This document shows positions 6,444 through 47,197 of a stretch of DNA of 64,000 nt, one piece after another. Every line of letters begins with the position of its first letter. Positions within the stretch are counted from its first letter, which is position 1. Position numbers and translations under genes: made by a program. This DNA comes from Halichondria panicea (taxonomy: Eukaryota > Porifera > Demospongiae > Suberitida > Halichondriidae): assembly GCF_963675165.1 (NCBI RefSeq), contig NC_087389.1, positions 5,876,621 through 5,940,620 on the forward strand, in the 5' to 3' direction. The notes under the pieces are model-generated. The model was given only the letters and a program-made list of their open reading frames with translations, was not told the origin of the DNA and searched no databases.

Positions 6444-9400
6444 TTAGGTTCTACTGCACATCACAGCTTCAGGTTTTCTGTGTATGAAATAATTGCATAA
6501 TGATACTGAAACGCGATGACAGCATGATTCACTTACCTAGCTGCTGACTGACAAATGTAAGTGGCCAATTCTTCCATTCTCATATCCAGTACAATGTCCA
6601 CTAGTGCTCGGTACGTGGCTGCACCTGGATTATGCTGTCTCCACACCTTTAGAGTATGAAACATTGCTGTTTGCATGTCATTCAGAAACAAAGCGTATTT
6701 AACATCTTTCTGTTCAGCAGGGCTCAGCCCCAACATAGCAGGGTAGGTCTCCACATTGTCAAAGTGATCTGCCAGGTCCCACATGTCTGTCTCTTCAATT
6801 TCAGTGTCAAGTTGAGAGTCGGTCACTTTTGTACGCTCCTTCAATTCCTCAATGGTCACAGTCCTCAGTCCACCAGCTCCTGGGAGAAGGAAAGGAGTGT
6901 GGTTAATGTGCATACAATATTTATTATGTTTTACATATAGACATGAAATTCCTATGGCTGTACAGAACACTACCTTGTATTGGGTACTAATTTTAGCGAA
7001 TTTGTAATTAACGCTAAATTAAGTCCCCACTAATAATAAACGCATTTAGTTCTTTTTTTTCAAACTCTTGCTTGTACATCTTTTGACAAATATTGTGCTA
7101 ATGAATTTGCTATAAATCTGCCAAAATGAGTACCCTAAAAACTGAAAACGTTCAAATTACTACTGTCTATAAATAAGGTATATAATTATATACAATGACT
7201 GCACATACCTGAGGGAATGGTGTGTGGATATGAAGTGAGGACATCTTGTGAGGTATCTCCTTCAGTGACATCAGCAGCTGTGTCTAATATTGAGATACAG
7301 TATTCAGCTGTATCTACACAACAACTACGTATATATTAATGACAACATGCAAAACAGCGTAAAACCATTACGTTGTAGTCAATAATGTTCCACATCATAA
7401 TAGAGGTACTTTATAATGATTGTACATACGCTGTATGTACTTACTAGAGTATTGCTGCTGATCACATTTTCTCTCAGTACAAGTACCTCCCGTAGCAGAC
7501 GATGGTTTTCCTAATTATGAGTAAAAATATCAATAAGTATAAGTATACTGAATTTTGAAGTGTTAATTGATAGAAGAAAAGCCCAATGCATGTGTCTCAC
7601 TGTCCAGTACCTAGTTACTACTGATACGTGGTGAAGTGAAAAAAATGCACAAACACTGAAAATATAGTTACCTGTGATGCTATCAGCCAAATTGATGAGA
7701 TCCACAGTGGGCCTTTTGAGAGCGTCTGACAGGAGACTCCATGTTACATGTTGTGTACTCAGGAGCTTGGCCAACATTTCACGCAAGGATGATACATTAT
7801 CTTCACAACACTTGATATTGATCTTGGTGAGAACAGGATAAGTTAGACCTAGAGCCAATCCCAGATCGAACCAGTGAGGGCTGGCACTTTCATGTAGTTT
7901 CTCGTAAACATGTTGTAGATCGTTGATTGTCAAAGCCTGTACAAAAACAACAATCATGCAACAGGGTTTCATTTGGTGGGGATTGCCTCCTCGGAAATAC
8001 ATTCTAGAGGAAACTCAATGGGAATACAATTGAGGGGTTCTGGTGAACAATATTCTTAACAGGGCAGATATAGTAATGAATTCCTGGGGTCACGAACCCT
8101 CTAGATATATACATATCATCAACACCCTAATATCATGCACGTGCACCATTTGCTCCCCTTGCCAAAATGTCAGGAGGATAAGTAGATACAAGATTTAGAG
8201 TACTGCCTACCTTGTGCACGTTCAGCAGGTGAGGACATTTCCCCGCGATTAGAATGATGTCACTCTCAGGGATTTCTTGATTGAGTTGTTGGTCCCTCAC
8301 TCCAGTCTTCTTACACACATCTTCCATTACTGTAACAGAGGACAATTTACCGGAAGCGAAGAAAGAAAAATATAACAAAGAAACAAGTAAAAATAATTAT
8401 TGGGCCAAAAGTAAAAGTATTCTTTATAAACAACAGAAAAAACTTAATTACAGCAACCATTGGAGATATTTTAGGACACAATAAACTGTTAAGTCTGAGT
8501 TGGTGCTACAATTACATCAACTACACAGTATCAACTACACAGGCACTGACTTATACACGAGGATTAACATGATCAGGCACAGGACAAATTAATGATCATA
8601 ACCTGTCGACCAAACGGCACTTTCTTACTGGTATGTTGATGTGGATCACTCGTTGTATTGACCACATGTTCCATTGCAGGAGACAATTTGTCTGAGGAGG
8701 GAAATGTTATAATACAAAAGTGATTACAAAACAAAGCTTACCAGAAATAATGTGCTGATCATGATCATGTACTTCCGTGCACACATCTTCCATTACAGAA
8801 TTACCTGAGGAAAAGCAGACACAGCAGTTACGCTCATGTGGTACGTTTGTCAATTAACATGCTCACTCAAACAAGGCTGTTGATCACTCATTCCAGATCC
8901 AGTGCTACTAACAACATTGGCCAGAGTCCCACATTGATTGACTGAAAACAACAAGAATTACTATAAATTGACATCATGCACATTGAACCCTGAACCCTCA
9001 TACATATACAGGTATATTATACACGTACGCTGTATGTACTTACTAGAGTATTGCTGCTGATCACTCTTTCTCTCAGTCTTCGTACAAGTACCTCCCGTAG
9101 CAGACGATGGTTTTCCTAATAGAAGAATTTGAGGAGAAACAAAATAATACTTATCCACCGGAAACTTTCTTACTGGTATATTGATCACTCATTCTACACA
9201 CAGGTTCCATTACAGGGGACGATGGACCTGAGGGGGATAATACAATGATACGAAAATACTTTGTTATACTAATGTAGTACACAAAATAATAAAAGCTGCA
9301 AATATTTACGTATAGTGCTACATAACTACCAGAGTATTGCAGCTGATGTCTCTTTCTTTCAGTGTTAACATCTGAGGAGCCTTCACCAGGGAAACAAAGA

Positions 9401-11898
9401 TAAACTTCTAAATAGTATATAGTTGCAATTTACCGGAAGGTAACAGATTTTCAGAATCAGTAATTTAGTAAGTCCTAAAGTGATGTATATGCCAATGCAT
9501 GTACTTACCAGATTGTGGCTGCTGATCACTCTTTCTCTCAGTACAAGTACCTCCCGCGTACGTAGCAGACAATGGTTTTCCTAATTATGAGTAAATAAAT
9601 TAACTTTTAATTATACAAAAAACTACTGTACTCACCAGAACCTTCGCTACTGTCCAGCCAGATTTTATGTTCATCACTGAGCTCTCCCCACACACGTGTC
9701 TGAAGGGAGCACTTCCAAAACTTACAGCCACTCCGTTCGATCACATCAGCAAGATGTAATTTGCCAGTGCTCTTCTTGCATGGGCAAAAGATGGCTGTCT
9801 TGGGTGTGTCGTTGTTGTAATGCAACACTGCACAGGACAATTTAATGCTGTGCAAAATTTCGTTTCGAATCATAGGGCATACTTCATTGCGAAGAGAAAC
9901 AGGGATGTCGATATACACTTCCATATATGAGAAGGAGTCGATCAGAGTCACGGTACACGGGAGATCGGAGATTTCATACTGGATACAATTTTTAGCAAAA
10001 ATGCTTGTTTCGCCAGAAGGGAGCAAAACTTTCCAGCCCACCCTCTTGATCATGTCCACAACTAGACAGCAAAAGACTCCAGAGCGAATACACCCACTAC
10101 GAAAGTAGACAGCAAGGGGCGCTATTGTGAACGACGAACGAATTTTGTCTAACTCAGCAGGTGGGATAGATGTGAGTAGAGATGGCATGAAGAACTCGGC
10201 TTGGTGGGTAGTGGCCTCCACTAGTGCAATGGGAGCAATCACGAGAAGCTCTTTCATGATCAACAGCATGTCTTCTGGAGAAAAGATACCTTCAACGTAA
10301 TGCTTCTTGAAAGGTCGTAGGAACTCTAAACTGACTATGCCTTTGTCTCGAAATCTCTTCCACTTGGCCTCAGTCCCTCTTGTGCTTAGAGTAGAGGATG
10401 ATTTGACTTCAGGAGTCCTCAGAGAGATGGCGTACTGTGAGAGCTCAGTGATCTTGTCTAGTGGAATCTGGGCATCCACAAACACTGTGTTGGGGAGAAT
10501 GGAGGGATAGTAGTGCGCTATACACACGTTGTCAAAGAAGACCAGAGCAGCTTCAAGATCTTGGAGCACGTAATGAAATCGAGTGGCTAATCGGAGACAT
10601 TCTTGCTTGCTCAGTACACCTCGCTCGAGAGTGGCAGATAAACTCTGGAGAAGTGAATCCAAGAAGGACCACCAGATGGGCATTTTGACTTGTAGCGGAA
10701 TAGAGCATTCAACAGCACTTCTAATCCTATCGGCAGTGGCCAGTGAATCGTCATCTCGGCTGATCGTGTTGAGACCAAAAATCAGATTGTTCAACGCAAG
10801 ATCGTTGTACACCAATAGCTTCTTGATATCGGGTGGCAGCATGTCGAGAATCTCTTGATTCCTCTTGATAAGAGTATCCAAGCTCTTGAGCTGATCTAAG
10901 AACGTGCCCACAAAGATCATCTTTGGCTTCTTGTCTTGTGAGGTATGGGACTCAATGGATCGAATGAGACTCTGAAGTGTCTCCTCGAGGGTCATGTGAG
11001 ATGCATGAGGACTACCAACAAGCTGCCCATCCTTGTAGTACTCGTCAGAAGGGAAACTGGAGAGTTCGTCAATCAAACGTAGGACTATCAACGCCACTGA
11101 AATGTGCTTGATGAAGAGAGGGCTGATGTCGTGGAATTGCGGCTGACCGCCGCAGTCGGTAACGTACACCCAGTTGGAATCAAACAGTTCTCCTTCTTGC
11201 TGGTCACTGCTCGACAGTTTGCGAGTTCTCTGTGTGGCTGGCTTCAGCTCTTCTGCCACACCACTCACTACACTCGCTATCACTTCATCGATGGCTTCGT
11301 CCAAAAATCTTGCAGAGCCAGAAAGTTCATCGGAATCGTTCGATGGGCTGGATTTGGAACCAGATTTTGTCTTGGTTGTGGTCATCCTCTTGGGAATCCT
11401 TAATGCCGTGATCATCTTTTTCAAGCTCTTGGCAATTCTTGATGCCGTGGATTGATCGGTGCTTCTTTCAACTAAACGATCGGTACTTTTTCCAACTAGG
11501 TGATCGGTGCTTTCTTTTGGTAGCTTGGCGATGATTTGAGCTAGTAGATTGAGCAGCTTTGACTGAGACATCTCTTCCCAGCCTCTTCCAGTTGTTTTGA
11601 ATTTTGCATTGGACACGGGGCGAATGCGTACTGGCTTTTCCATACAAGGAGTGCTGTCACGCTGTAGTGGAGGGGGCTTGTCAGTTAGCAGGTGCTTGAG
11701 GTTGGTCTTCCCTGTTCCCGCCGGTCCAAACACGAGCATGTTGACAATGTTGACCAAGACGTGTCCGTGCTTCATCGCCTCATCAAACAACCGCTTTGAT
11801 TCTAAACGTGCTAGATGTGCTAGATGTGCTATAGATGTATGTGTATGTGTGTATGTGGTGTTAGAAATGTTATCTATTATGACAAGATGGACTACCAT
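6444..11898 (-). CDS. Roc/COR-type GTPase with C-terminal Death domains
   Basis: Predicted intracellular signalling GTPase with Death-fold effector domains. Fifteen exons join in frame: 11898-9636, then 9580-9509, 9371-9330, 9227-9174, 9115-9044, 8941-8867, 8804-8742, 8691-8629, 8329-8211, 7936-7672, 7510-7445, 7283-7209, 6879-6537 and 6477-6444 (stop TAA), 3606 nt, 1201 aa. Head: P-loop GPAGTGKT (58-65), G3-like TDCGGQ (247-252), G4-like VGTFLD (330-335), then a region resembling COR up to about 754. Residues 755-901 are a Ser/Thr/Gln-rich linker from seven small exons; about 902-941 is half a Death-like module; 942-1029 a Death domain; 1077-1190 a second Death-like domain with the core Trp (LKVWRQ). 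The ATG at 11898 gives one open exon, but a splice acceptor at 11802 (TTTAG) is shared with the decayed duplicate behind it, so an unseen first exon is possible. Recognition is by motif, not by search. Confidence 0.8.
8629..9580 (-). other. Ladder of seven symmetric linker exons in the Roc/COR-Death gene
   Basis: Exon lengths are 72, 42, 54, 72, 75, 63 and 63 bp, all multiples of three and all phase 1-1, each with an AG acceptor and a GTAAG-like donor. They fall into repeat families: GKPSSATGGTCTKTERKSDQQ-type, SPxMExVxxxxSDQxxTS-type and NSVMEDVCTEVHDHDQ-type, so they arose by exon duplication. Related single copies lie at 7445-7510, 41736-41807, 43452-43514, 23871-23945 and 58771-58850. Any subset can be skipped without breaking frame, so linker length could vary by alternative splicing. 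Confidence 0.8.
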
Positions 11899-11918
11899 AA
11901 AAATTGGATTATCAGCGC

Positions 11919-12560
11919 TTATTCGATTATAAGAGTACGTTTATTTAAGCGCATGCTCAACTGCAGGTTTTTTGTTTGAATTGAAGCGCTTTTCTTAAGT
12001 AATTCTCCTTCTTGCTGATCACTGCTCGACAGTTGGTCAGTTTCCTGTGTGGCTGGCTTCAGCTCTTCTGCCATACCACTCACTACACTCGCTATCACTT
12101 CATCGATGGCTTTGTTCAACTTTCTTGAAAGTGCATCAGAATCGTTGTTTGACGGGCACGAATTTGAATCAAAAATACGCTCAACGGAATCAGAAATTGG
12201 CTCGGCTGTGGTCATCTTCTTCAAGCTCTCAGCAATCTTTGATGCTTTCTTTTGGTAGCTTTGCAATGATTTGAGCTAGTATAGCTTGCACAGCTTTGAT
12301 TGAGACATCTCTTCCCAGCCTCTTCCTTTGAATTTTGCGTTGGACACTGGTCGAATGCGTACTGGCTTTTCCATACAAGGAGTGCTGTCGCTGTAGTGGA
12401 GGGGGCTTGTCAGTTAGCAGGTGATTGAGGTTGGTCTTCCCTGTTTCCGCCGGTCCAAACACGAGCATGTTGACAATGTTGACCAAGAGGTGTCCGTGCT
12501 TCATCCCCTCATCAAACAACCGCTTCGATTCTAAACAGGATGTGTAAATGTAACTAACTA
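11919..12560 (-). pseudogene. Decayed partial duplicate of the Roc/COR head
   Basis: Repeats the first about 230 residues of the neighbouring head exon, including its acceptor (TTTAG before AATCGAAGCGG). The P-loop reads GPAETGKT instead of GPAGTGKT. A 1-nt deletion after LLTDKPPPLQR shifts the frame, another break follows near 12265, and the copy stops before the G3 region. The flanking ATGGTAGTCCATCTTGTC segment is also duplicated but is closed by a stop here. It is a tandem duplication that never contained the full head or has lost the rest. Confidence 0.85.
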
Positions 12561-15213
12561 TATGCAATACTTCAGAGCTAGGTGACAAGATGGACTACCA
12601 TAGAAACTGGATTATTAGCGCATGCGCTCATGCATGGGGTCAATAGCAGAGCTCTATAATGCAGTCATATTCTAGCCCCACCCAGTAACCAGATATCTCT
12701 GTGACGAGTAATGTTTCGAGGCAAGCTAACTCGATCTATATCATAATTAATATTATGTTACAGTTTATTTTACAGTTCATTTCACATAAATTCATAATTA
12801 TTATAAAAACAATTATATTGACCATGCAAGAACTTGGAACAAAAGGACGTCTCACATTCTCTCAGCATGATCAGACAAGGTAACAGCATGCCCAGAGAGT
12901 CCTTCCAGATACATGGATATCACCAGCTATAATTATAGCTACCATGCACTGTACAAGCTAGCTCATAGAAATCAATTTAAAATGTTCATCAAATAATTAT
13001 TATTATCTTTCGCATGCCGTGTAAACGTAGCGGGTCATTTTCGTGGGGGAAAAATCCGTTCAACTCGAACAGGTGATGTTTGTGATCTTGAGTGAAAATG
13101 TTCATTGCCTGCACTGCATTGCATGCGTTCCAGTAAACCACGCCTAGGTCAGCTTTCCCACGAAAATGATAACGAATATCTTACCCCACAAAAATTATCT
13201 GCTATATGGTAGTCTGTCAATTGGCTTGGCATAATCAACCCTACAGGTTAGGTAGTCCATTGGTTTGGATATAGCCTCAACAAAACAAGTTATTAGTGTT
13301 TCAGATTTTGATGTTAAAGTCCCCCACAGGCCTCAGGGTTAAATGTATTGACATTCTGCGCAACCAAGACAGTGTGAAAACACAATACAATAACAGTACT
13401 TGTGATCACACATACATGTTGTATTGTAAACAAAATTACATCAAATCATACGTAACTTGGTGCATGTACAATAGAGTACATTGAGTGTGGAAGGCAACTA
13501 GGTAGCTCTAGTTATACAATAGAAAAGCATTTAATGGAAGGACCGGCATCGATCTGCTACAAACAATGGATACAGCAGCTGTACGTACATAAACCTTTAA
13601 AGCTTGCTAAGTGAGTGACCCACCAATGACAGGGAATGTGGCTGATCATTACAGGAATGTGCTATGAATGAATTAACATGATGATGTCACTAAGTACACA
13701 GTACAACGTTACCAACCCAATCACTCAATCACAGTGACTGTACATGTATGTGTGCATATTGATGCAATGTCTGATAAACAGTATCCATAATTAATTATAA
13801 CACATGTACCACAGTGTGTGGAATATAGTCAAAGGAACAATGCTCTAGCTTGATCAAACCAGGACCACATGGAAGGGAGTAAGCAACTAATACACACCAT
13901 ATAAATACATGTCAGGTATGTCAAACACACTTGTAGTAATGTAATTTGTGTGTGTTGACCAAGGCTAGGCAGGCTAATCATAGATTAAGTCTACGCATGT
14001 GCTTGTGCAATTAATTCATGATTTGAGTGGTTGCATACAAACCTTATTAAGGTAATGAAAGAGGTGAAGCCAACAGTTTAATAAGAGCGGGATTACCAAC
14101 ATTGAAACATTGAGACAGCTCGCAACAGCTGTACGTACACACTACATGTATACAGTAGAGGACAAATTAAAGTTTATGATGCGTTTGTTAACCCGAGGCA
14201 CTCCACAGGCTATAGTAGTCAATCTGTGTGTCTGTGGATATGAGTCTATACTCACCCGGATGTGATAGCACTGTATTGGTACCATGGATAGCCTCAACAC
14301 AACAAGGTTTTATAATATTAAAGGTTAAAGCTTTGTTGTCGAGCAAAAGCTAAAAAGCATGAACTGCACTGCAAGTTGTCCTAGATGTACACGTGACTTT
14401 GACTCGAGGCTGTAAACGTATAGACCTCAAACTAACACCGAGGGTTTGCACTTCAGTTTGATTTTGTTGCACAAACAAAATAATTGTTTTTGTGCATGTG
14501 CGCTCAAGCTTGCAATATATAGGTACTGAGAGCAAAAACATTTTAACTTTCCTCGTAAATAATTGGAAAATGCAGAGCGGGATTACAAACATTGTACAAT
14601 GGATTTTGTACGTACAGTCTACTAATAACTATAGTCACGGTAGAGGACAAATTAACGTTTCTGTTCTGTTTGCATATAATTATAGTCTCTGCATTTGTGC
14701 TGATTCTGTTGCAAAAGCCAGTGGGAAATGCAGTAGCTAGGAAGGTACTGAGAGCGAGCGGAAAACATTTGAACGCCCAAGCACAGGAAGCCACACCCAC
14801 TTTCCTGCGCATGACAGGTGTGGTCACTAAACGTACAAAAGCTCAATCTGAATACCTAGTGCTGCTCACTGCTTATGAATAGCTCCACTTTAGCTTATAC
14901 TATAAGGCCTAGAGGGGTGCTCATCTCATAGCTGGATAAGCAAAACAATTGTTTTTGTGCATGTGCAATCAAGCTTGCAATATCAAACCACTAATCATAT
15001 TCATAGTAATTAAGGCTGATAATGTAAACACAGTAATCACTAAACTATGCACAGGTGGTACAGTCAAATTCCTCAGTCACCAAATATTCCAGTTATATGG
15101 TACTATATGCGAACGAAACAGAAACTTTAATTTGGCAAGTTGCTACAGGTACGAGTGATTGCAACTATGAGCATCAACACTCACTGTACTATAAAGTTCC
15201 TTGCTCCCCTCAC
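12561..15213. other. Non-coding interval without a supported gene
   Basis: AT-rich sequence with local duplications. The segment CAATTGTTTTTGTGCATGTG with its flanks occurs at about 14480 and 14945, and GTAGAGGACAAATTAA at about 14156 and 14641. An inverted pair TCATTTTCGTGGG / CCCACGAAAATGA (13036 and 13159) suggests a MITE remnant. The open frame ending at 14882 (plus) has no splice context or conservation I can point to. Confidence 0.6.
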
Positions 15214-21810: not shown

Positions 21811-22200
21811 GAACAGCTAGTAGGACAATACGCACAATTAGCGAGTGCTACAACAATACACAAACAAACAAACTAACAACAACACATTGCTACCAATCAG
21901 CACACACTCACACTCATCAATACCATATAGCTATTTCAAAGGGATACAAAATGAATCTTTTGATCGTGAAAATGCATAATTCAAGTTATGAGCACTCAAA
22001 GTTAGCTATCAAAACGCAAAGCTTCTAATCAGAAAAATCACAAGCTACAAAGGAAGTCAGCCCTTTCTAGTAACCACGCTTCCTGTGTTAACTTACCATC
22101 GAGGTTAGTTGAGCACAACGACTACTTTAGATCATCATAGCCCTCCTCCTTATGTCTCCTGTGTGCAGGGACACTACATTAGTCACACCAACTACAACCC

Positions 22201-22298
22201 CAGAGGAGGATCGTCAGGGTCAAAAGGTCTAGTCTTAATCCTAAAACTGCTTCTGGGGACTTTCCACTCAGCTATTGACCCTGACAATCCTCCTCTGC
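22201..22298. repeat. Foldback segment
   Basis: Arms CAGAGGAGGATCGTCAGGGT and, 60 bp on, its near reverse complement ending in TCCTCCTCTG. The same palindrome occurs at 57093-57190 in half B, so it predates the duplication. Confidence 0.7.
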
Positions 22299-22481
22299 TC
22301 CAACCGCATGTGCAAATTCAACAGTCTCTTGTACAACACTTAGTATAAGTCACTTAATTCAACACCAGTTTAACAACTTCCTTTCTCAAATTCAGGCGTT
22401 ATTTTAACAACTTTACACACACAGTCAGAGTCACATATTCAACACAACCGTTGTATTACTGGCTGTTGTAAATGAACTCAC

Positions 22482-23134
22482 AGCTTGAAGCACCATCTCT
22501 CAATATCCTCCTCATAATTCTCCAGCAGTCGATGGCACTGCATTGAAACACACACAGCTTTATACATACATTGCAGGCACTCGTGTATGTATGTATGTCA
22601 CTATATAACTCCCTAACAACCAATGAGGAGCATGGATACATAGTGACAGAGCTTACACACATTTTTATACATTGCAGGCACTCGTGTATGTACGTATGTC
22701 ACTATATAACTCCCTAGCAACCAATGAGGAGCATGGATACATAGTGACAGAGCTTACATCATAATCTGAATGTTTACAAACATCGTCCAGCATCTCGATC
22801 AATCGAACCTCACTGCAAGAAAATAAAATCAACTTTTTAAGAGTGTTAGTGCAATTAGATGGAGGCTACCTGTTAGCGTAGGAGCCGAGTTTCTCCTGCT
22901 CCTAATTCGTGTCCCCACCAGCAAAGTTTGACTTGGCCGTGTCGTCCATCCTCTGGGGGGAGGGGCAGCGTATGAATTACCCCATACACCTCAACACATT
23001 TTAATAGATGTTCACACTCACTTTGTTGAAGGCTTGGACAAAATCTTTGCATACTTTACATGATGGTTTGACAGCCAGAGAGTAGCTGCCAGGAGGAGGA
23101 CAATGAGTACCAAGGATCTGTCGAGTGTATTCAT
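22482..23134 (-). pseudogene. CRELD-like gene N-terminal exons, copy A (broken)
   Basis: Exons, minus strand: 23134-23022 (start ATG, hydrophobic signal-peptide-like MNTLDRSLVLIVLLL, then CKVCKDFVQAFNK), 22952-22870 (MDDTAKSNFAGGDTN), 22812-22758 (VRLIEMLDDVCKHSDYD) and about 22541-22482 (CHRLLENYEEDIERW). The order and motifs match the N-terminal domain of CRELD, an ER-resident or secreted cysteine-rich EGF protein. Two lesions: a 1-nt loss between the signal peptide and the Cys motif, relative to copy B, shifts the frame; and the Trp codon after GDTN reads TAG. The intron after exon 3 contains a tandem duplicate of about 100 bp (22560-22660, 22665-22760). Confidence 0.7.
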
Positions 23135-23399
23135 ACCCTTAAGCTGGCGTAGCTGTGATAGTCACTCAACTCAGTTTAGAATGTAGAAAATGTGAAGATT
23201 GGTACGGGTCGTTTCACCCACCTGAATATTATAGCCTCGATCCCAGGCCGCACTTCCTATGCATGGGGCCAGTGATGATGAAGGTACTCCAAACATGTGT
23301 TCAGTCTCTTGACTATAGAATCAATTGCAAGGCCAGGTCTTAGTGATTAATCGTGTGAGCGTTGCTATAGTGTTCATAATAATGATTGCGCATGCTCTT

Positions 23400-23945
23400 T
23401 TCACATTCCATCACAATAATTATAAGCAGACACATAAAACAGCATCAATAAAACAAAACGTTAAAGTAATTATTTCAGTTTTGTTCAGTTCTGCAATGAA
23501 TCTACAAATGTGTGTAGCAGTGTCTCCTCTTTGCTACACTCTCAATGCATGAGCCACTCCAGTTTGATTGCCTTCGTACTTTCTCTTTCGAGTAGCATCG
23601 CTTTTTTCAGCAGTAGTGAGTTCGAGTCTTCCAAGCATGCTGGGTGTCATCTCAGCTACACAGTAGATGTCACTGTTGGGGATTTCTTGATCGAGCTGCT
23701 GATCAGTCACTCCAGTCTTCCTGCACACATCTTCATTACAGAGGATGATTGCAATTTACATGAAGTTCAAAATCACTTTAAAGTCCTCCAAAAATCGTAA
23801 TTGACTATTTATTGAGCAATGTATATAGCGCTATGTACTTACTATGATCATACACGTACGCTGTATGTACTTACCAGAGTATTGCTGCTGATCACTCCTT
23901 CTCTCAGTCATTGTACAAGTTACCTCCCGTAAGCAGAGGATCGTT
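23400..23945 (-). pseudogene. Dead Death-domain exon plus linker exon, copy A
   Basis: The exon at about 23735-23470 begins VMEDVCRKTGVTDQQLDQEI, homologous to the Death-like exons of the Roc/COR and NLR genes. An extra T in a T run (near 23603) breaks the frame after LTTAEK, a few residues are missing before MTP, and the codon for the core Trp (after HALRV) is TAG. The linker exon at 23945-23871 carries two 1-nt insertions. No head region lies upstream, so this is an isolated relic of a third family member. Confidence 0.75.
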
Positions 23946-23959
23946 TTCCTAATTATGGG

Positions 23960-25000
23960 TAAGCAAGTACGTACATGACATTGTAAGTACTTGTAATTGC
24001 TGTACAAGTACTTGTATAGTTTACTCATAATTTGAATCTCATATCTGCACAGCAGGTCAGGTTAAACAGCTAGCCACCACACCTATTTGCAAAGCACCAT
24101 AATGCATATAATTATGTATGACCTGCATAATTATAGCTTCAACAAAAATTATACAACTAGCTTCATAATTCCCAGCTCCTGAACCTCCATAAACATGCAG
24201 GACAAAGTTTATAGGCCTCTGAAGTGTTCTCTTCTAAGTATGAACTCCCCCCTGTGTTGCTACACCTAGCTTGAGGCATTATAATTAAGTTACTACCCAC
24301 AGGCACTTGACTCAAGAGGTTGGTATAGTAGGTTGGTACACAATCATTATTGTAAGGAATGAGCAATATAACTTGGTATAGCACGTACACTATATATGCA
24401 GACTACAACTTGATCTACTCAAGAAGTGAAAAAGCAGTACTGTAACATACATAGCTATAGCAATCAAGCAATAACTTGATAGGAAATTTAGGTGGTAGCA
24501 ATTCCACCATACACAAAACCAAGAGTTCATTAGGAAGAGTATGCAACTCCACTTAAAACTGTAGTATAGGCGTTTCTTCCAACCTACGTCACAACCACCT
24601 AATGAACCTCTTGGCAAAACTAACTTAGGAGCTAGACAATAATTATGTACCACTATAGCGTGTACAGTACTTGCATGTACTATTGATGTGCTTGCAGTCA
24701 GTGCTCTAACAAGGTCATCAGTTATCATCAAATCTTACTCTACAGCCCACCCTAATCCTATACGTGTACAGTGCTTTTCAAGTAGGCATGCACAGACATG
24801 TTCAACCCATCAACAAAAACTTGGAAAGACAATCACCCATTAAATGTGGATTCTGAAATAGCACCTTCTATATAAATCTTACAGGACATTCCCTATTATA
24901 ACTTATGCTAGTACCAGCACAGCACCCACTGAAATATCATTTATAGGCTCCCTGTACCGTATTGTTGTCATGGTGAGTATATGGCCATGATGATTGCTGG
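23960..25000. other. Interval without a recognised gene, conserved in half B
   Basis: Matches 58860-59880 base for base with scattered differences. No frame with splice context stands out. A possible minus-strand exon at about 25215-25170 (SDNQCTELKKKLALCKSL, donor GTGCTC) is conserved at 60110-60060 but is short and unassigned. Confidence 0.5.
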
Positions 25001-27400: not shown

Positions 27401-27502
27401 ATTTTACTTTAATGGCAGACCACACTACTATAACTTAAAATAGTAAAAAATGGGTAGTGACCCCATAATACTATAATTAGAATATGCACATGGCAATTGA
27501 GA

Positions 27503-36221: not shown

Positions 36222-38639
36222 TCAGGGGGCGCCTTCCGCACATGTACTTGACCCCTGCTGGGGGGAGGGGGAAGGTTGATAATTCAAATTAAAAGTCGTA
36301 ATTTGAGTTGGTGAAATCCAAACATGCGCTCTCTTTATGTCCTACATGTATCACATGGTGTAATAAATCTACCACCTTAATCATCTTATGTTATATTTGT
36401 TAGAGCTACAAAGCTAATAACGAGGCTGTACCTGAATGAGATGTAGTCCTGGGTGGTTGAGGAAGGCGACGACTCTCTTACTGTCCTCCTTGGACACGCT
36501 ACTTGATAATCTGGACCTATAGAGGAGGATACAGGCACTGAGGCATAAATATAGAACCTTTTTGCAGTGCCTTACTGGGAAACCTATAGAACTACATTAC
36601 ATTAGCACAAATCATTAATTATTTTAATAGTACAATAATAGTATACAGTACGTACACTTGCAACAGAGATTTGCCGATCAAAACCACAATTACATTGTCA
36701 GCTATAAAGATTAAATAATTTCAGCCATTTCTACAAAAAAAGACAGAACCTAGTCTACCAAAAAGGGTAAGTTGGGTCGTTGCCCGTGAAACTTTGAACT
36801 GGGCGACGCCCCAACTTGTATGTACTTGAGAAGGAGTATAATGATTTCAAAATTTAGGGAAATTACTAACTGTTTTGTAAAAAAAGTCCCCAAGAGGGAA
36901 TCGAACCCATGCCTTATCTATCATCTAATCTACTAAGCCACCACCCTAACCTTCCAACAACTCCACCCCAGAGCTGATCTCCTCAGTGTTGATAAAGCTG
37001 AGGACCATTTCCAGTCCAACAAAACACGAGAGAATAGTGAAATCCTCGAGCTCTTTGAGAAGACAGGCATGTCTTCATTTCAGATCTGTACGATGTCTTG
37101 ATCGAACCCTCTTATCCTCACACTCAAACTTCACACACAGTCACCACCGCCCACACACTCTGAGAACTGCTCACCCACAGCAGCCAACAACAGCTCCTGC
37201 CATACCTTGGTCTGAGGGGGCGGGGGATTATGACATGATTATGATTGTGATTTCAAATGTAAAATACTTTTTTTAGTGCTTGTATCTAAGCACACCATTG
37301 GAAAATTAATTCTTAGCTACATGTATCAGGTTTCATACAGAGGGGGGGGCTGGGATTTCCCCCCCCCTTGAACTCTGAATGATGTCATAATAAAATGTAT
37401 ACTAGTAAAATGTCATGATTTGAAACACACGAAAAGCCCAAGTTGCACCTCAGATGATCATTTCGTAAAATCATTTCGTAAAATTTTACGATGATCATTT
37501 CGTAAAAAAAGGAACAACCTCCCTGAAATAAACGTTTCCCCCTCCCAGCTAAAAATCCTGTATGAAACCCTGGGCCTGTTGAATGGACAATATGAACACA
37601 AATTACGGGCTCTCAAAGATAGCTACCAAAACGACTGAAATTTGGAAAACAGTGTAAGGCTATCATAACATAGCCGTTGCTTATCACAGAACTTGTATAC
37701 TATAATCATGGCGCCTCACTGTGTGCATCTTTCTGACTTTGAATGACCACAATCCACCATGAGCATTATCAGAGTCCTCCCAAATAGGTCTCCTATTCTC
37801 ATTCCTCATAAGATGGTAGCTCTCTCTCTCGCCCAACTGGTCTATGGGACGAATATTGTTGACCACACCCCAAAATGCCTGTTGGTGGGTAGGGGGCGAT
37901 GTATTGATATTATAATGAACGTGATGGACATCACCTTGATGGTCTTGACTGTACACAAAGGTTTGAGATTCTCAAAGAAATCTTTGGCAGTTGCTCCTCT
38001 TCGTGTACTGTATGAATAATGAGAACATTCACAATATAATTATAATAACACGCACACACCATATTATAGTACAGGGGCACAGCACAAAATACACTATAGA
38101 GTACAACACTAGTAGTAGATACAGCATGGGACAGAGGGCCAGTTGCCTGTATGACTATTGCATAAAACACGAGGTTTCTCATGCTACATCTGTTTTATAT
38201 CACGATGACCCCGTACCAAATCATGCCTCGAGGCTATACGTAATATAACAGGGAAGGGAGTGTATGACTTGACTACACCTTGTTACCTGGACACAGCACA
38301 ACGATACTTTACAAGGAGGGGGACAGCACAAACACAGAACTGGCATAACTAGCTACACACACACAATGGCCACCACCAGATATATAACTACACCATTTTG
38401 TCCCCCTCTCAACTATCCAGTTTCTACACACACACACACGTACGTACACACACTCACGCATCATGCCAAAACGTCCACGGTGAGTTAAGGAGATAGTTAT
38501 CAGGGTCCCCCCCACTAGGCTCATTCACAGCCACGGCATCTTCCCTTGCCTTCCTTGATAGCCTGGGAGAGCTGGTCCGCATCTCTTCACCACCTTGCCC
38601 TGTTCTTAGAGTGTCTTCTGCCACTGTACCGTCAGCCAT
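36222..38639 (-). pseudogene. EIF4E3: eIF4E class 3, copy B (broken)
   Basis: Second copy of the eIF4E3 gene. Exon 1 (38639-38458) has the start context AAGATGGCT that copy A lacks and encodes MADGTVAEDTLRTGQGG. Exons 38007-37935 and 37878-37720 are intact and nearly identical to copy A. Exon 3 (from 37211) carries a 20-bp insertion near 37030 that shifts the frame after VFSKS. Its donor is lost: a deletion of about 620 bp relative to copy A fuses intron DNA (CCACCCTAAC) to the exon end. The last two exons (36516-36432, 36257-36222) are still present. Translation would stop early and lose the C-terminal third. Confidence 0.8.
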
Positions 38640-38865
38640 CTTGTAGGGAAACAAGTGGGAGAAACTAGCAAAACACAGATGTAGTTTATTAGACTAACGA
38701 CCTTTTCCTAGCTTAACAAACAGTTTGTTCCTTGGACGACCTTTACCATTATTCTTGCACACTAGGCCAAGCAATGGGCAATTTTTTAATGAATTCACAC
38801 AAATAGCACAAATCAAGGAAATAAATTGACTAAAACAGTACAAGTATGACATGCACAATAATGAG

Positions 38866-41800
38866 TTAGGTTCTATTGCACACCACAGGTTCAGGTTTTC
38901 TGTGTGTGAAATAATTGCATAATTATACTGAAACACGATGACAGCATGATTCACTTACCTAGCTGCTGACTGACAAATGTAAGTGGCCAATTTTTCCATT
39001 CTCATATCCAGTACGATGTCCACTAGTGCTCGGTACGTGGCTGCACCTGGATTATGCTGTCTCCACACCTTTAGAGTATGAAACATTGCTGTTTGCATGT
39101 CATTGAGAAACAAAGCATATTTAACATCTTTCTGTTCAGCAGGGCTCAGTCCCAGCATAGCAGGGTAGGTCTCCACATTGTCAAAGTGATCTGCCAGGTC
39201 CAACATGTCTGTCTCTTCAATTTCAGTATCAAGTTGAGAGTCGGTCACTTTTGTACGCTCCTTCAATTCCTCAATGGTCACAGTCCTCGGTCCACCAGCT
39301 CCTGGGAGAAGGAAAGGGGTGTGGTTAATGGGTGGAGTCTCTGATACAATATTTATTATGTTTTACATAATTATAGATATGAAATTCCTATAGCTGTACA
39401 GAACACTACCTTGTAACGGGTACTAATTTTAGCAAATTTGTAATTAACGCTAAATTAAGTCCCCACTAATAATAAACGCATTTAGTTCTTTTTTTCAAAC
39501 TCTTGCGTGTACATCTTTTGACAAATATTATGCTAATGAATTTGCTATAAATCTGCCAAAATGAGTACCCTAAAAACTGAAAACGTTTAAATTACTACTG
39601 TCTATAAATAAGATAATTATATATACAATGTATGCACATACCTGAGGGAATGGTGTGTGGATATGAAGTGAGGACATCTTGTGAGGTATCTCCTTCAGTG
39701 ACATCAGATGGTACAGCATCAGTCAGTACAGTAGAGGCTGTGTGTATTCATTAATAATATAACTGTCATTGTGAAAATACACTATACATCCTGCGTGCAA
39801 GTATATAGATTGCCGACAAAGATAGCAACACTCACCTGTTGTATGTTGGTCTGTTCTGTGTGTAGACTGCAGGGCTGTAGTACAAGTAGCCTCGTCACTA
39901 GCTGTGGGGTGGTGCTCTACTGGTGATGCCTGAGAGAAGCTCTGTTCATTGATGAGAGTGTCTGGATCAGTGACATCACTAGGAGTGTCCACTGTATCCA
40001 CAACCTCATCTATTGGGTGGTGTTCTACTGGTTCGTTAGTGGAATACCATGAATCAATGCTGTCATCATCATCATCATCATCGGAAGAGATCTACAATAA
40101 GATCACGATAAGTGTTAAAGAATGATATGACACAACACTCACTTGAGTATGCTCCTTCAATTCCTCAATGGTCACAGTCCTCGGTCCACCAGCTCCTGGG
40201 AGAAGGAAAGGGGTGTGGTTAATGGGGCGGAATCTCCGACAGTGAACAGACATTTAATATCCTAACTCTCTAAAAGTACACCCAGATATACAAATTCAAT
40301 TTGAATTAACAGAAGCATACTTTACATCATTATAATAATTATTGTATACTGTATAGCGCGAAATTTTCAAGGGGCTTAACCCTTTCCCCGTTGAAGCCGT
40401 CATATGACGGCCACTCTAGTGGTCATTTTCAAAAATTCGTTGTGCCCACTGTGTTGGAGCTATGCACACACTGTAGGTAGCAGCACATGCGCATTGAGCT
40501 GCTCTTTCACATGGTATCTTTAATATGCTGCCTTGAGGTACGCTTTGTACAGTAATGTCGAAAGAAAAGTGACCGTTTGATAATGTTTCAAGATCTTCGT
40601 AGTACAATCTCAGTGAGGTTCTAAAGTAGCTAGACAGTGAGAATATCGATGCTTATGGCCTTGTTGAGTGAGAGGACTGTGACTGGGATCATAGCTAGAT
40701 AAAAAGCTACCTCAAGCTAGAAAATATAGAGCCTGAAGGCCTGAGGAAGAAGCTCTTGCGATGGAACAACTTCTTGGATCTGGTAAGTCTAGAGTAGCAT
40801 CTGTAGTCTTGATAGCTTCAGTATAACTGTATTTAGGCTAGTTAGTACAGCAGTGGACATCATGAGCCACCATTGAACTTGTAAACCTGTGTGTAGGTGA
40901 AGAAAACATTTCCCGGGAAAAGGGCGTCTGCTGATACGACCTCGCAGAGAACTTTCTGCAGATCCTGATTGAACCATGTCACTGTGAGAACATTGAGAAC
41001 ACTTATTTAGTGTCTTTAGCCACTCTGTGCCTTCATACAATATTATTTGTGTACATAGTTGTGAATGTTTGTAAACAATTGCTAATTAGTGGGGGTGGTC
41101 AGTTGCTAGGTAACGAAGATGGTGTTAAGATACCTCTGGGGTCTGCGCTACCTGTAGGAAATAGTTACAAGTCATTTCAATGTATGGTTCATGACATACA
41201 AATTTTTAAAGAAAATTGTTATTTATTCTGTATTTTCTTGTTTTAATTAAAACGGGGAAAGGGTTAATTTTCGTTGATTTCGTGGGTTAGCAATCCTACA
41301 CGAAAATGAAGTCCACGAAAATTGTTTTTTAATTAGAATTATCTGCTATAACATGCAAAGATTTAAAGGCGTGGATTCCGGTAAGCAGCTATTTCCACGA
41401 ACATTGTGCAACGAAATGCTTTAAGATCTATAGGCTATTCCACGAAATATAAGTGCCTCAAAAATTTTGCGCTATATATACGGTACGTAATTCACACCTA
41501 CCTGAGGGATGGTGTGTGGATATGAAGTGAGGACATCTTGTGAGGTATCTCCTTCAGTGACATCAGCAGCTGTGTCTAATAATGAGATACAGTATTCAGT
41601 ATCTACGTTACAACTATACGTATATATTAATGACAACATGCATAACAGCGTGAAACCATCACGTTGTAGTCAATAATGTTCCACATAATAATAGAGCTAC
41701 ATATAATAATTTTACATACACTGTTCTGTACTTACCAGAGTATTGCTGCTGATCACTCTTTCTCTCAGTCTTCGTACAAGTACCTCCCGTAGCAGACGAT

Positions 41801-44800
41801 GGTTTTCCTAAAAATATAATTATGTATACTGAATTTTGAAGTGTTAATTGATAGAATTAAAAAAAGCCCAATGCATGTGTCTCACCGTCCAGTATCTAGT
41901 TACTACTGATACATGTGGTGAAGTGAAAAAAATGCACAAACACTGAAAATAGTTATATACCTGTGATGCTATCAGCCAATATGGTGAGCTTCACTGTGGG
42001 ATTATTGAGACCATCTGACAGGAGACTCCATGTTACATGTTGTGTACTCAGGAGCTTGGCCAACATTTCACGCAAGCATGACACATTATCTTCACAACAC
42101 TTGATATTGATGTTTGTGAGAATAGGATGAGTTAGACCTAGAGCCAATCCCAGATTGAACCAGTGAGGGCTGGCACTTTCATGTAGTTTCTCGTAAACAT
42201 GTTGTAGATCGTTGATTGTCAAAGCCTGTACAATAAACAGAGTTTCATTAATTTTGGTGAGGGTTGTCCCCTCGGAAATACCTTCTAGAGGAAACTCAAT
42301 GGGAATACAATTGAGGGGTTCTGTTGAACAATAGTTATGCCTCGGTGCGCATGCGCAAGAGAGGTATATACGGTAGTGTGTTTGTGTGTCTGTGTGTGTA
42401 GACTATTTCAGCTGCTCAAGGATCAATGAAGTGCAAGTAAGAGTTTCTATAGGCTTCTAGTCATGATTTCTTGGCTTGCAATGGTTGGATTTTGCAAAAT
42501 AAAGCTTCGTTCTCGAGTTATGCCTAGTTTTGTTTACTTGGAATGCCATTGCAGCCTGTTCAGAAGAGTCCGTAGCAAAAATTTTTCACCGAGTGTTGCT
42601 ACTCTACTTAGTAGTTAGCTCTGCACTAGAACGCTAGCTATATTGGTAGCTGCAAGAGTGAGAAGAGAGCTGCAAGGCTCTGCGACGTACTTGCCATCAG
42701 ATTTTAACTTTTGGCATCGATCGTTTTTAACAACAATCATGGTCGATCATTACCCACTATTTCCCGCATACACAACATTTTCATCATGATAAATTAATTA
42801 TAATCAATGTGTGTATAAAAGCTAGCTATAATTATGTTATGTAGCTTTGGCACCTCCACCGAGGCATCAACAACTGCGGTGCTTTCATCTTAACAGGGCA
42901 GATATAGTAATGAATTCCTGGGGTCACGAACCCTCTAGATATATACATATCATCAACACCCTAATATCATGCACGTGCACCATTTGCTCCCCTTGCCAAA
43001 ATGTCAGGAGGATAAGTAGATACAAGATTTAGAGTACTGCCTACCTTGTGCACGTTCAGCAGGTGAGGAAATTTCTCTGCGATTAGAACAATGTCACTCT
43101 CAGGGATTTCTTGATTGAGTTGTTGGTCCCTCACTCCAGTCTTCTTACACACATCTTCCATTACTGTAACAGAGGACAATTCACCTCAAGAAAAGAAAAA
43201 AGAAACAAGTAAAAAATATTGGGCCAAAAGTACAAGTATTATTCTTTATAAGCGACATAAAAAACTTACTCACAACAACCATTGGAGATATTTTAGGACA
43301 CAATAAACTGTTAAGTCTGAGTTGGTGCTACAATTACATCAACTACACAGTATCAACTACACAGGCACTGAATTATACACGGGGATTAACATGATCAGGC
43401 ACAGGACAAATTAATGATCATAACCTGTCGACCAAATGTGCACTTTATTACTGGTATGTTGATGTTGATCGCTCGTTGCATTGACCACATGTTCCATTGC
43501 AGGAGACAATTTGTCTGAGGAGGGAAATTTTATAATACAAAAGTCGTTACAAGTATATAATTATAGCTAGCTCTCCAAAGTATGCAGATCGAACCTCCGA
43601 CAGTGAACTTTTTAATTCTAACATACACCAAACAGGCTCTATAACTATGTTTATGATATACATGCATGCACTGTATAATCACGTAGATAATCCACACATA
43701 CGTGAGTGTGGATATGAAGTGAGGACATCTTGTGAGGTATCTCCTTCAGTGACATCAGATGGTACGGCATCAATCAGTACAGTAGAGGCTGTGTGTAAAC
43801 ATAAATAATTATGCCTACTGGCAGATGCTTTATGGAGCATGATATTATTTCCAGTACATGCATGAGTTGGTATATCGATCAAGATGTGGTAGCAATATCA
43901 CCCAAGTGGGTAATACATCACCATGTAACCACCGCCCTTGAACTTGCATCCCTTTGGAACCGGCTTTTGTGATTACCGAATGTAGTTTTACTAATAAGCA
44001 GGGAACATGGATAACTACGGCGAAATGATGTCATGCCCTGGCTCGTGCGTGAGTAATAACCTAAATCTATACGTATACAAAACACTGACAAAGATAGCAA
44101 TGCTCACCTGTTGTATGTTGGTCTGTTCCGTGTGTAGACTGCGCACGCAGGGCTGTAGTACAAGTAGCCTCGTCACTAGCTGTGGGGTGGTGCTCTACTG
44201 GTGATGCTTGAGAGAAGCTCTGTTCATTGATGAGAGTGTCTGGATCAGTGATATCACTAGGAGTGTCCACTGTATCCACAACCTCATAAACTATTCGGTT
44301 GTATTCCGCTGGTTTGTTAGCGGTTGACCATGAAAGGATGCTTTCAGAAACAGCTGAAGATATCTATAATGGATAAGATCACAGTAAAAAGTTAAAAATA
44401 ATGATGTATTGCAACACTCACCGTTTGAGCCTCATCAATCATCTTCGACAGTAGCGTATCCCAAAGAGAAGGGAAAGTACGATTCATCTAGGAAATTATG
44501 AGTATAGTTTTTAAGCATAAATCAAGAATTTACTGACCTCTTCATTTTGTGGAGGTAAACATGTTCTCTCCCACTCATTCAGCATTGCAGAATTCCTTGA
44601 TTCCCGTATGATCTGTGTATTAAGCTAGATAAATGCAACATAATCATGAACTGTAGAGTGAGTACCTTCAACTGTTCATTGCACATGAGCATCAACTCCT
44701 CGCTCACAGGATTATGACTGACATCAACACCGTCCTCCAGGTAACTGACATGGAACCCCTCCAGTCTAGGAAACAGCTCAGGTAGACACTCAGTGAGAGC

Positions 44801-47197
44801 TATCAATCCCTCATCATCAATGGAGTTGTTGTTGAGATACAACCTTTTTAAATTCTTACATATCACATTAGCGGACTTGAGATGGTGGATAAGCATTATG
44901 ATGTCAGCAGAGGTGAGAGAACAACCCAAGCAGTAAATATATTTAAGATATGGAAATGCTTGAAGAAACTTTGCCAGTAAGAGAGTTCCAGCAGTTCCAC
45001 TGAAATTGGAATCAAACAAGTAAATTGTTGTTAAACTGTTTGGGTTGATATTCAGCATCTCACAGATGACTGTGTATTGAGACTCCGAGTGAAATGAAGT
45101 GGTGAGATGGGTAGCTGATAATTCAATGTCAGTCAATCCTAACGAAATATTCTTAACAACTGAACATAATCCAGGTAAACCAAGATTATTATTAGAGAGG
45201 TATAAGTATTCCAGTTTAGCACAGTGAGAGGCAATCGACTGTAAGAGGGTGGTCAGCAGAGCTCCATTGACGTCAGCATCGTCAGTGAGGGTTTTGGTTA
45301 GCTCCAGTTTCGTCAGGTTGATAAGAGCACCAGACTGTACAGCTGTATCTAATAACTGTATGCCGGACACTCCGAGAGGGTTGTGAGATAAGTTCAGCCG
45401 TGTGAGGCTCGTACAAGATGTGTGCATGAATGAAGACATGACGTTAGTGAAGTTGTTATGCTCCAACAAGAGTACACGTAAAGCTGTAAAAGCAGCTGAG
45501 GCTCTCCTGAATAGATCAGCAACACCTTTGTCAGACAACTTAGTCTGCTCGAGGGATAATTGTCCGACTTGCAGTTTACCATTCGCATTGGAAAGTATGT
45601 CAGTTAGTTCCTTCAACAGTTTATCCTCGATTGCACAATGGGATATTATGATAACCATATCGTCACAATTTACAGCATGACGAAGAACATAAAACCCAGC
45701 TACATAGTCAAAAGACTTCGTAGTTGTCCTGAAATTATCGAGTAATAAATTTGTTCCATACAAATTACAAACTTTTGTGCAGAATCCAGAGTCTGAAGCT
45801 TCGAAAGCAGCATGCCATAAAACCAACTTATTAAACTTTTCAGCCAACACAAATTGATCCGTCAAACCATGATCCAAACTGATCACCTTATCGCTATGAC
45901 TACCATTGTACTTACTAGCAAGACCAAACATAAATCTCCACACCATGTCAAACCGGTCACTGTCAGCATTAGTCTCAACAACTTTCAGTTTCTCCTCATT
46001 GGGTAGAGTAGCAAGATGGAGGGCAGCCAAGAACTCCTGGATGGTCAGGTGAGCAAAGTGAAAAGACAGGCCATGACCAACAGGTAGAAGTGATCGTGCA
46101 GACTGCAACAGACCAAAGCACTGCAACTTGTCACCAACTTCAGGTAAGCGAGAGGACAATTCAGCTTCTGAGAAAACCAGCTGATCTAATAATAAACACT
46201 CGTAGGCAAACTCACACATCAACCAAAACGTGTTTTGTATATCATTCGGAATCTCGTCGAATCTATTTAGGCTAATCGGACAATCGGAGAATTTCTTTTT
46301 AACATTGCGAAGGATAATGCTAAGAACAATTTGAGTGTACAGCTCAGTTAGCGTACGAGGAAGCTCTTGGTCTAAAGTGTGCCACAAGTTACAAACAATG
46401 GCACAATTGAGGGGCACAGAACACACACTCTGAATGACTGGGTTGTTCTCAAGCTGCTCGATAAGAGAAGAAGCTTTCTCTGGGAATTGCTCAAACTCTG
46501 ATTCTATGTACTGCTTGATATTCTCCTCATTGAAACCAACTACCTCAACCAAACGGTTTACAGAAGGAAGGTCATGAAGAGGAGCTGAAGCAGAAGGTCG
46601 TGAGGTGAGGAGAACAGAAGCAAAAGGAAGAACATCACCAAAGAGAAGGTCATATAGAAATGAGGTTTCTAATTGATTGTCTTCACTAAGCTCGTCCCAG
46701 CCATCAGCTATGATGAGGACACTTTTTCCTTCTCTTTCTTCCAACTCTTCTACAACAGATTGGCGAATCCTCTCATTGGCATGAAGAAGTTTGAACAGCT
46801 CAGCGAGACTTGTGGCAGAGGACACTCGATTCTCTCTCAGTGGAAGCAACAGAACACAGTTGAATTGTGTCAGGATCTTGCCCTCTGCCCACCCTTCAGC
46901 AAGCATGGTACACAGTGTGGTTTTACCAATCCCAGCATTGCCTTCAACGATGAGCTTCTTGACTGGTTTCTTGCCTTCTTCGACTTTGAATAGGTTGCCA
47001 TGGAGAATTGGAGTACGCTTGACCTTATCATCAGGTGCACCATGTTGTGGCAAGCCGGCTCTAAATCCTTCTTCTTTTTCAGCCTCCACTAACTGCAAGT
47101 TGACGAGCTTGTCTCCTCTAACTGGTGGCCATTGCTTTTGACGATTCAAGAGTCTTTCTATGTATTTCTGGCGAATGCTAGTAATGAATTTATCCAT
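38866..47197 (-). CDS. NACHT-LRR receptor with C-terminal Death domains
   Basis: NLR-type sensor. Exon 1 (47197-44666, 844 codons from an ATG) has Walker A GNAGIGKTT (86-94), Walker B LIIADGWDEL (161-170), sensor-like LLTSRP (196-201), then about eight ribonuclease-inhibitor-type LRRs (for example LKRLYLNNNSIDDEGL, LEYLYLSNNNLGLPGL). Later exons: 44612-44538, 44487-44422, 44363-44108, 43788-43702, 43514-43452, 43163-43045, 42225-41961 (Death domain), 41807-41736, 41575-41502, 40195-40143, 40091-39836, 39737-39642, 39301-38959 (second Death-like domain) and 38899-38866 (TAA). All phases fit except 41575-41502, which is 74 bp against 75 in copy A. Skipping it gives 1438 aa. The 256-bp exon (VVDTVDTPSD...) is present twice. 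Sponge NLRs usually carry the Death-fold domain N-terminally; here it follows the LRRs. Two genes cannot be excluded. Confidence 0.75.
40349..41483. mobile_element. TA-flanked MITE with a nested insertion
   Basis: Left end CTGTATAGCGCGAAATTTTC after TA; right end GAAATTTT-like AAATTTTGCGCTATATATAC then GG and TA. The ends are imperfect inverted repeats. The body (CACGAAAATGAAGTCCACGA) is split by a TTAA-flanked element. It lies in an intron of the NLR gene and is absent from the matching intron of the Roc/COR gene. Confidence 0.7.
40380..41263. mobile_element. piggyBac-like non-autonomous element, 884 bp
   Basis: Begins CCCTTTCCCCGTT and ends AACGGGGAAAGGG, flanked on both sides by TTAA (40376-40379 and 41264-41267). 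TTAA duplication and CCC...GGG ends are the signature of piggyBac. The internal palindrome CCGTCATATGACGG lies near the left end. No transposase frame. Confidence 0.9.
42333..42886. mobile_element. Insertion of about 550 bp absent from half A
   Basis: The empty site is seen at about 8045 in half A. The insert starts near TTATGCCTCGGTGCGCATGC and ends with CACCGAGGCATCAACAACTG..., so ATGCCTCGGTG/CACCGAGGCAT form short inverted ends set in from the boundary. Related sequence at 32190-32470. No coding frame supported. Confidence 0.75.

Follow-up and report, generated by a model that had tools for sequence, protein, structure and literature searches.

A Death-domain tail common to Roc-COR-type GTPase and NACHT-LRR genes in a tandem cluster of the demosponge Halichondria panicea

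In metazoan DAP kinase, a Roc-COR region and a Death domain are present in one protein. In sea-anemone NG3, kinase, Roc/COR, Death and TIR domains are reported together (PMC5094078; this and the other papers cited are drawn on in part, and what is said of them is limited to those parts). The nearest precedent for a C-terminal module that is uncoupled from NACHT groups is given by the zebrafish NLR-B30.2 genes, most of which lie on one chromosome arm, and for which gene conversion together with exon shuffling has been proposed; in the NLR-B30.2/fintrim case, the tree of the C-terminal module departs from the NACHT groups and resembles that of another gene family (PMC4852459). Here we describe a stretch of 64,000 nucleotides from the demosponge Halichondria panicea (C13:5876621-5940620, referred to as the window; genome 131 Mb), in which gene A, with a divergent Roc-COR-type GTPase head, and gene B, with a NACHT-LRR head, have a common Death-domain tail.

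In zebrafish the shared part is the B30.2 recognition module; by contrast, in the sponge it is a Death-type tail, the partner is a Roc-COR-type GTPase, and the sharing takes the form of near-identical DNA, including introns and 3' flank. The sponge genes are like DAP kinase and NG3 in having Roc-COR and Death; they differ in forming a tandem family, in having a tail common with NLRs, and in that no kinase domain was found (0 matches at E<=0.1 in five Roc-headed proteins scanned), which separates them from the DAP kinase type. Shuffling of same-phase exons has been described for brown algal ROCO genes, which are proposed to be immune receptors, but it is the LRR exons of these genes that are shuffled, rather than tails being traded with NLRs (PMC11378527). 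Domain shuffling in amphioxus innate immunity has given new Death/NACHT combinations in a marine invertebrate; there architectures were compared across genomes, and the parts of that paper drawn on do not describe a single tail that passed recently, within a locus, from one head class to another (PMC2575513). A paper on Dysidea avara reports that sponge NACHT-LRR genes are expanded, those of H. panicea being the largest set relative to assembly span, and the legend to its Figure 2 names COR among the domains of NLR architectures; sharing of tails between ROCO and NLR genes is not described in the sections used here (PMC12909245). That paper sorts NLRs by an N-terminal Death or CARD domain, whereas here Death is C-terminal and common with Roc-COR genes: at E<=0.1, no Death domain precedes NACHT in P0121, P0128 or P0139, the Death-type modules are C-terminal, and the proteins thus are not of the NLRD type. 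No report of ROCO and NLR genes with a common tail was found in the searches made of the open-licence PMC literature.

An earlier note on this DNA had proposed that the heads of A and B are unrelated, that their C-terminal halves are homologous exon for exon with agreeing lengths and phases, and that head and tail are exchanged as modules between the ROCO and NLR classes in one locus. The heads are indeed unrelated (best BLASTP E = 2.9 between them). In the tails, lengths are the same for the half-Death exon (HALF, 119 bp), the Death-type exon (DEATH, 265 bp), the Death-like exon (DLIKE, 343 bp) and the last exon (34 bp), and a linker is of 66 bp in A and 72 bp in B; the agreement of lengths and phases does not, however, hold throughout, since the 75-bp linker of A is of 74 bp in B, which shifts the frame. 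DNA identity between A and B is 95.8% in the half exon, 93.2% in the Death exon, 97.4% in the Death-like exon and 91.2% in the last exon; alignable intron parts are 91-100%, and the 3' flank 95.0%, identical. The shared DNA comprises a 2.8-kb block at 91.5% identity and two others at 88% and 93%, far above chance, in two segmental copies of tail plus 3' flank, i.e. 4522-8729, with blocks 88-93% identical to parts of 36950-43552, and 36950-43552, which is broken up by B-specific stretches. The proposal that the tails merely resemble each other as Death domains, which would make them no more alike than random ones, is rejected by the 93-97% DNA identity of the half, Death and Death-like exons. 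The exon-for-exon agreement is also rejected as proof of deep conservation, the introns being equally alike. The A/B tail copy is recent, and its exons are not clearly more conserved than its introns; since the segment was copied together with its introns, the exon-by-exon agreement is not independent evidence.

Nor is the pair a unique case. Within four C13 stretches (~294 kb), picked because tails had been found there, 12 genes have a head plus a tail, all on the minus strand and in the order head then tail; the heads are ROCO in four, ROCO2, a second Roc-COR-type subfamily, in three, and NLR in five. The ROCO heads are followed by HALF+DEATH+DLIKE in three genes (A included) and by HALF+DEATH+TAILB, TAILB being another tail end, in one; the ROCO2 heads by HALF+DEATH+DLIKE in two and DLIKE alone in one; and the NLR heads by DLIKE alone in three (two with frame-broken heads), HALF+DEATH+TAILB in one (N_5615) and HALF+DEATH+DLIKE in one (B). 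One further DLIKE, frame-broken, is at 5607 kb. DLIKE exons are 97-100% identical among the genes at 5664k (ROCO) and 5827k (ROCO2), A (ROCO) and B (NLR), with 95-98% identity over 1.5 kb of 3' flank, and the exon is identical in 5580k (ROCO2) and 5643k (ROCO). Gene B is itself a mosaic, its head region being 90-93% identical to NLR genes and its 3' tail 98% identical to a ROCO2 gene. Of the 240 RefSeq proteins that were scanned, tail modules are present in 36, of which 26 have a Roc head and 10 an NLR head, each with head and tail in one chain. The NLR protein P0121 has HALF+DEATH, as have most Roc proteins with tail modules, and the DLIKE end is present in six of the 10 NLR proteins, one of which (P0123) takes it from a neighbouring gene, and in four Roc proteins. 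Exchange of modules between ROCO and NLR genes is thus borne out by one-chain RefSeq proteins, by 12 genes mixing three head and three tail types, and by the failure of NLR tails to group as one clade; it is seen in the locus for which it was proposed but is a property of the whole gene cluster, not of one odd pair. The genome matches each tail exon at no fewer than 150 places, the number scored out of 688 and 497 candidates. Many Death-like exons ~40-50% identical to the tail exon are present on C3, C5, C6, C7 and other contigs.

The extent to which tails follow heads was considered by identity and by trees. DLIKE exons behind the same head type are on average 85.2% identical, against 84.8% for those behind different types; for DEATH the two means are 90.9% and 91.8%. 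When three head types are distinguished, 3 of 10 genes share their head type with the nearest relative in DLIKE (2.65 on average after shuffling), as do 0.5 of 8 with the nearest in DEATH (2.28). A single NLR clade is rejected both on a DNA tree built from the ten genomic copies of DLIKE (p-AU 0.0008) and on a protein tree of 18 rows, from which the chimeric models P0123 and P0020 were dropped (p-AU 5.6e-6). On the DNA tree the B DLIKE exon groups with two ROCO exons and one ROCO2 exon (support 100/100), the other three NLR exons lying elsewhere. The labels ROCO and ROCO2 are mixed on the tail trees as much as shuffled ones. A first tree, now superseded, had 20 rows including P0123 and P0020 (p-AU 2.5e-7), and on it the NLR label was not more clustered than shuffled; with these two dropped it is, so that the stronger proposal, that tail kinship ignores head class, is withdrawn. 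Near-identical DLIKE exons behind all three heads, together with rejection of one NLR clade, therefore indicate that tails were exchanged more than once, and the mixed ROCO/ROCO2 labels, together with residual clustering by NLR head, that their movement was free between the Roc subfamilies but rarer from Roc to NLR genes or back. Judging from the architectures, at least two kinds of Roc/NLR join would be needed, one giving the shared Death-like end and one adding HALF+DEATH to NLR genes, with two ends (TAILB in N_5615, DLIKE in B). In ROCO loci, grouped by hand from RefSeq lists only, TAILB is present in 9 of 9 on contig 6998024, and DLIKE in 4 of 8 on C13, where NLR genes interleave (Fisher p 0.029). 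The contrast suggests that TAILB is the older ROCO end, that DLIKE came from NLR genes and that HALF+DEATH passed the other way.

We thus consider it probable that in the C13 cluster Roc-COR-type GTPases of two subfamilies and NACHT-LRR ATPases became joined to a common pool of Death tails, which duplication and recombination moved more than once; they may thereby share Death signalling. By tandem segmental duplication with non-allelic recombination, the breaks falling in phase-1 introns that separate head from tail, a tail already present would on several occasions have come to stand behind another kind of head; because the introns around the linkers are phase 1, such joins are frame-safe. 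With respect to NLR genes lacking HALF/DEATH, the similarity of B stops within ~25 bp of the point where the intron following its NLR linker starts; its similarity to Roc-COR tails starts in a later intron. Non-allelic recombination in a duplicated region would be the simplest cause. The heads may respond to different ligands or states, forming oligomers when nucleotide is bound, and the tails that they have in common would recruit the same Death-domain partners, so feeding different sensors into one downstream response.

With respect to the heads, profile searches place NACHT (PF05729, 89.1 bits versus a cut-off of 26.7) and, after it, leucine-rich repeats (LRR_6, 34.2 bits versus 23.4) above the Pfam cut-offs in gene B, but leave the Roc head of the window below them; the head of gene A is accordingly taken as probably a divergent Roc-COR type by family membership. 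In an alignment of 27 family sequences, G27, G30, G32, K33, D217, G219, G220, Q221, T301 and D304 are invariant, which we take to be the P-loop, DxGGQ and T/N-x-x-D motifs of Ras-like GTPases. Against the PDB, a profile of the A-head family matches Ras-like GTPases (E 2.8e-4) and, from E 0.011 upwards, Roc chains of LRRK2; Roc (PF08477) is matched by 13 of the 27 members at E<=0.01 (best 1.9e-5) and COR-A by one (E 2e-5).

The tail modules are likewise best assigned by family. DLIKE is a Death domain at that level (26.2 bits in P0245, over a cut-off of 22.6), and seven of 13 DLIKE copies match PF00531 at E<=0.1 (best 8.2e-5). Weighing against the Death call, the window copy matches only Mst1_SARAH (E 0.0012, below the cut-off), as matched by eight of the 13 copies. 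One of 10 copies of the 265-bp exon matches Pfam Death, weakly (E 0.044), and a 49%-identical relative at C14:4989951 overlaps a Death match that is over the cut-off (32.1 bits). HALF+TAILB aligns along most of a one-exon Death-like domain (score 153 versus 44 for the best of 500 shuffles), so the view that HALF is a broken exon is rejected; it would seem to be the opening portion of a Death-like domain that, in the TAILB form, is interrupted by the 265-bp exon, and because HALF+TAILB aligns along DLIKE, TAILB and DLIKE appear to be forms of one Death-like domain. Between DEATH and DLIKE there is no similarity beyond shuffles (score 27 versus a shuffle mean of 24.1; hhalign probability 0.1), and a score of 47 for DEATH versus a third tail type, TAILC (shuffle maximum 45), is a weak lead. 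PDB profile matches of the 265-bp exon were mostly de novo TIM barrels, judged spurious, and the PDB profile search with DLIKE gave nothing useful.

Gene A comprises 14 in-frame exons on the minus strand (11775 to 6444; 1163 residues), with GT-AG at every junction. Its head exon (9636-11775), with P-loop, DxGGQ and TxxD conserved in the family, is followed by seven linker exons of 72, 51, 54, 72, 75, 63 and 63 bp (8629-9580), by HALF (8211-8329), which is like the N-terminal part of a Death-like domain, and by DEATH (7672-7936), the 66-bp linker (7445-7510), the 75-bp linker (7209-7283), DLIKE (6537-6879) and the last exon with the stop (6444-6477); the seven linker exons and both tail linkers are phase 1 at both ends. 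The ATG of this model is the start site of the RefSeq relatives P0006 and P0007. The gene had earlier been placed at 6444-11898; the exons from 11775 to 6444 do translate in frame, but the true start is probably further upstream, since tblastn with RefSeq N-termini finds an N-terminal exon (66-80% identity) at 15415-15188 on the same strand, and a start at 11898 is therefore probably too short. This upstream exon, which may be a coiled coil as judged by eye, is common to the sampled Roc-COR genes, with tblastn matches in the sampled stretches at 7 of 7 of them and near 0 of 5 NLR genes. Just upstream of the gene A head, the beginning of a Roc head is present a second time, in a truncated and frame-broken copy (11997-12594, minus strand) that may be what remains from a previous exchange.

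Gene B (47197 to 38866, minus strand), the tail exons of which match those of A, starts with a head exon encoding NACHT (E 3.8e-25) and leucine-rich repeats (44666-47197), 100% identical to RefSeq P0121 over 97%. NLR-specific linker exons of 75, 66 and 256 bp (44108-44612) lead to two phase-1 linkers of 87 and 63 bp at the NLR/Roc-tail junction (43452-43788), both of which are missing from RefSeq isoform X5 (P0121). There follow HALF (43045-43163), DEATH (41961-42225), the 72-bp linker (41736-41807) and the 74-bp linker (41502-41575), which isoform X5 uses; being one base under the 75 bp of A, it shifts the frame of B, and isoform X5 therefore ends early. Without the two junction linkers, a gene B model has its first stop after 1160 residues, which is the length of P0121, and P0121 maps exon by exon onto the window save for its last seven residues (too short to seed); without the 74-bp exon the frame is open to the Death-like end (1438 residues). 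The RefSeq cluster of P0121 has 19 member sequences. Further along is an 892-bp insertion (40376-41267), present in B but not in A, with perfect 17-bp terminal inverted repeats beginning TTAA, which from its looks we take to be a piggyBac-like, non-autonomous element. The tail continues with a truncated Death-like exon of 53 bp (40143-40195), a second copy of the 256-bp NLR linker with the next linker of 96 bp (39642-40091), DLIKE (38959-39301) and the last exon with the stop (38866-38899). The truncated Death-like exon and second NLR linker also occur in the tails of RefSeq models of Roc-COR genes at 5664 kb and 5756 kb; thus Roc-COR tails themselves hold a piece of NLR linker.

Tails may also be shared at the RNA level. 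The RefSeq NLR isoform P0123 has exact exon matches running from an NLR gene at 5617-5620 kb to a Roc-COR gene at 5583-5580 kb, of which it uses the linker, Death-like and last exons while omitting the head, HALF and DEATH, the crossing from one gene to the other being between ~5617.2 and ~5583.6 kb; P0020 skips its own last Death-like exon in favour of the copy of a downstream gene. Of seven RefSeq proteins traced to sampled genes these two cross gene borders, and five (P0007, P0019, P0121, P0243 and P0244) stay within them. Because the exons are near-identical, reads may have been misplaced, and the cross-gene isoforms are only a lead. It is a rather doubtful, if conceivable, extension that the cluster is a combinatorial bank, in which same-strand tandem heads are spliced via same-phase introns onto their own or a downstream Death tail, which would allow an NLR head to be made with the tail of a Roc-COR gene.

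Repeated movement of tails between Roc-COR and NLR genes has to be weighed against several observations. With two classes (Roc and NLR), 8 of 10 genes have their nearest DLIKE relative within the same class (4.68 when shuffled, a fraction of 0.084 being as high), the equivalent figure for DEATH being 5 of 8 (shuffled 4.57; fraction 0.288), and the NLR label changes twice on the genomic DNA tree (3.4 on average in shuffles, of which 37 of 500 are as low) and four times on the 18-row protein tree (6.2; 41 of 500). The one-chain head-tail structure rests on RefSeq models, which are predictions; no RefSeq protein for gene A itself is among the matches listed, and transcription across its own head-tail junction is presumed from sequence. 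Neither the Roc head of gene A nor the 265-bp exon reaches a Pfam cut-off, two of the five sampled NLR heads are frame-broken, and the tail of gene B carries the frameshift of its 74-bp linker. The residual clustering of tails by NLR head, which qualifies the tree result that NLR tails are not one clade, would suit a history in which heads and tails were joined a few times long ago and gene conversion has since kept the tails alike, the apparent exchange being largely homogenisation. The near-identity of DLIKE exons and flanks across genes is also in its favour, and domain-specific gene conversion is reported for the zebrafish NLR-B30.2 genes (PMC4852459). Conversion, however, requires a tail on both sides, and three sampled NLR genes are without the HALF+DEATH that N_5615 and B possess; moreover, N_5615 and B differ in their ends (TAILB and DLIKE), and ROCO genes have either. 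The differing architectures therefore need at least a few real joins, and an account by conversion, though it deserves to be taken seriously, appears improbable.

Frame breaks in two of five NLR heads, the frameshifted B linker and the truncated head copy beside A, together with the lack of a listed RefSeq match for A and an exon divergence about that of the introns, are what would be expected if the hybrids were recombination debris, i.e. decaying, non-functional genes. We regard this as unlikely: the frame of gene A is open across 14 exons; in B the NLR head and the Death exon are still open, the full tail can be reached by skipping an exon, and the RefSeq cluster numbers 19 sequences; and RefSeq has full-length models of the hybrids P0019 and P0244, each at its own locus. 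The same models bear on whether heads and tails are separate adjacent genes. Head-tail joins are known from predicted models only, but wherever it can be tested heads do not stop before tails, RefSeq P0121 (gene B), P0019, P0007, P0243 and P0244 all spanning head into tail at their own loci, and the linker phases preserve the reading frame, so that separate genes are very improbable. It is equally hard to credit that repeats were wrongly joined in assembly, although tandem and segmental duplications abound here: twelve genes show several combinations, on one strand and always head then tail, and in another assembly relatives of both the Roc and the NLR heads seem to lie together on a contig of 105623 bases and on one of 1390172 (contigs of equal size being taken as the same). 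Recurrent joining of tails to Roc-COR and NLR heads by duplication and recombination thus remains the preferred reading.

The window has other features. A second duplicated block of ~7 kb is present at 22111-29050 and 57004-63996, in pieces that are 89-94% identical, with weak Death-type fragments by tblastn (HALF/TAILB-like at ~23.5-23.7 kb and HALF-like at ~58.5-58.6 kb), and may hold another Death-tail gene pair. Tandem arrays of a 67-71 bp unit are at matching places in its two copies (27526-27983 and 62465-62871). A plus-strand open frame at 50131-50613 gives a HIRAN domain match (31.3 bits versus a Pfam cut-off of 24.7).

How different innate sensors come by a common output is, as a rule, deduced from domain arrangements of great age; in the sponge cluster the joins are young, A and B still agreeing at 91-100% in introns and flanks, and genes of several combinations stand side by side, so that the recombination step itself is open to study. 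The sponge NLRs have Death modules at the C-terminal end, opposite to the NLRD class, and GTPase-type and ATPase-type switches are linked via one tail. If it is true that splicing also mixes heads and tails across genes, the cluster would be a combinatorial intracellular receptor system in an early-branching animal.

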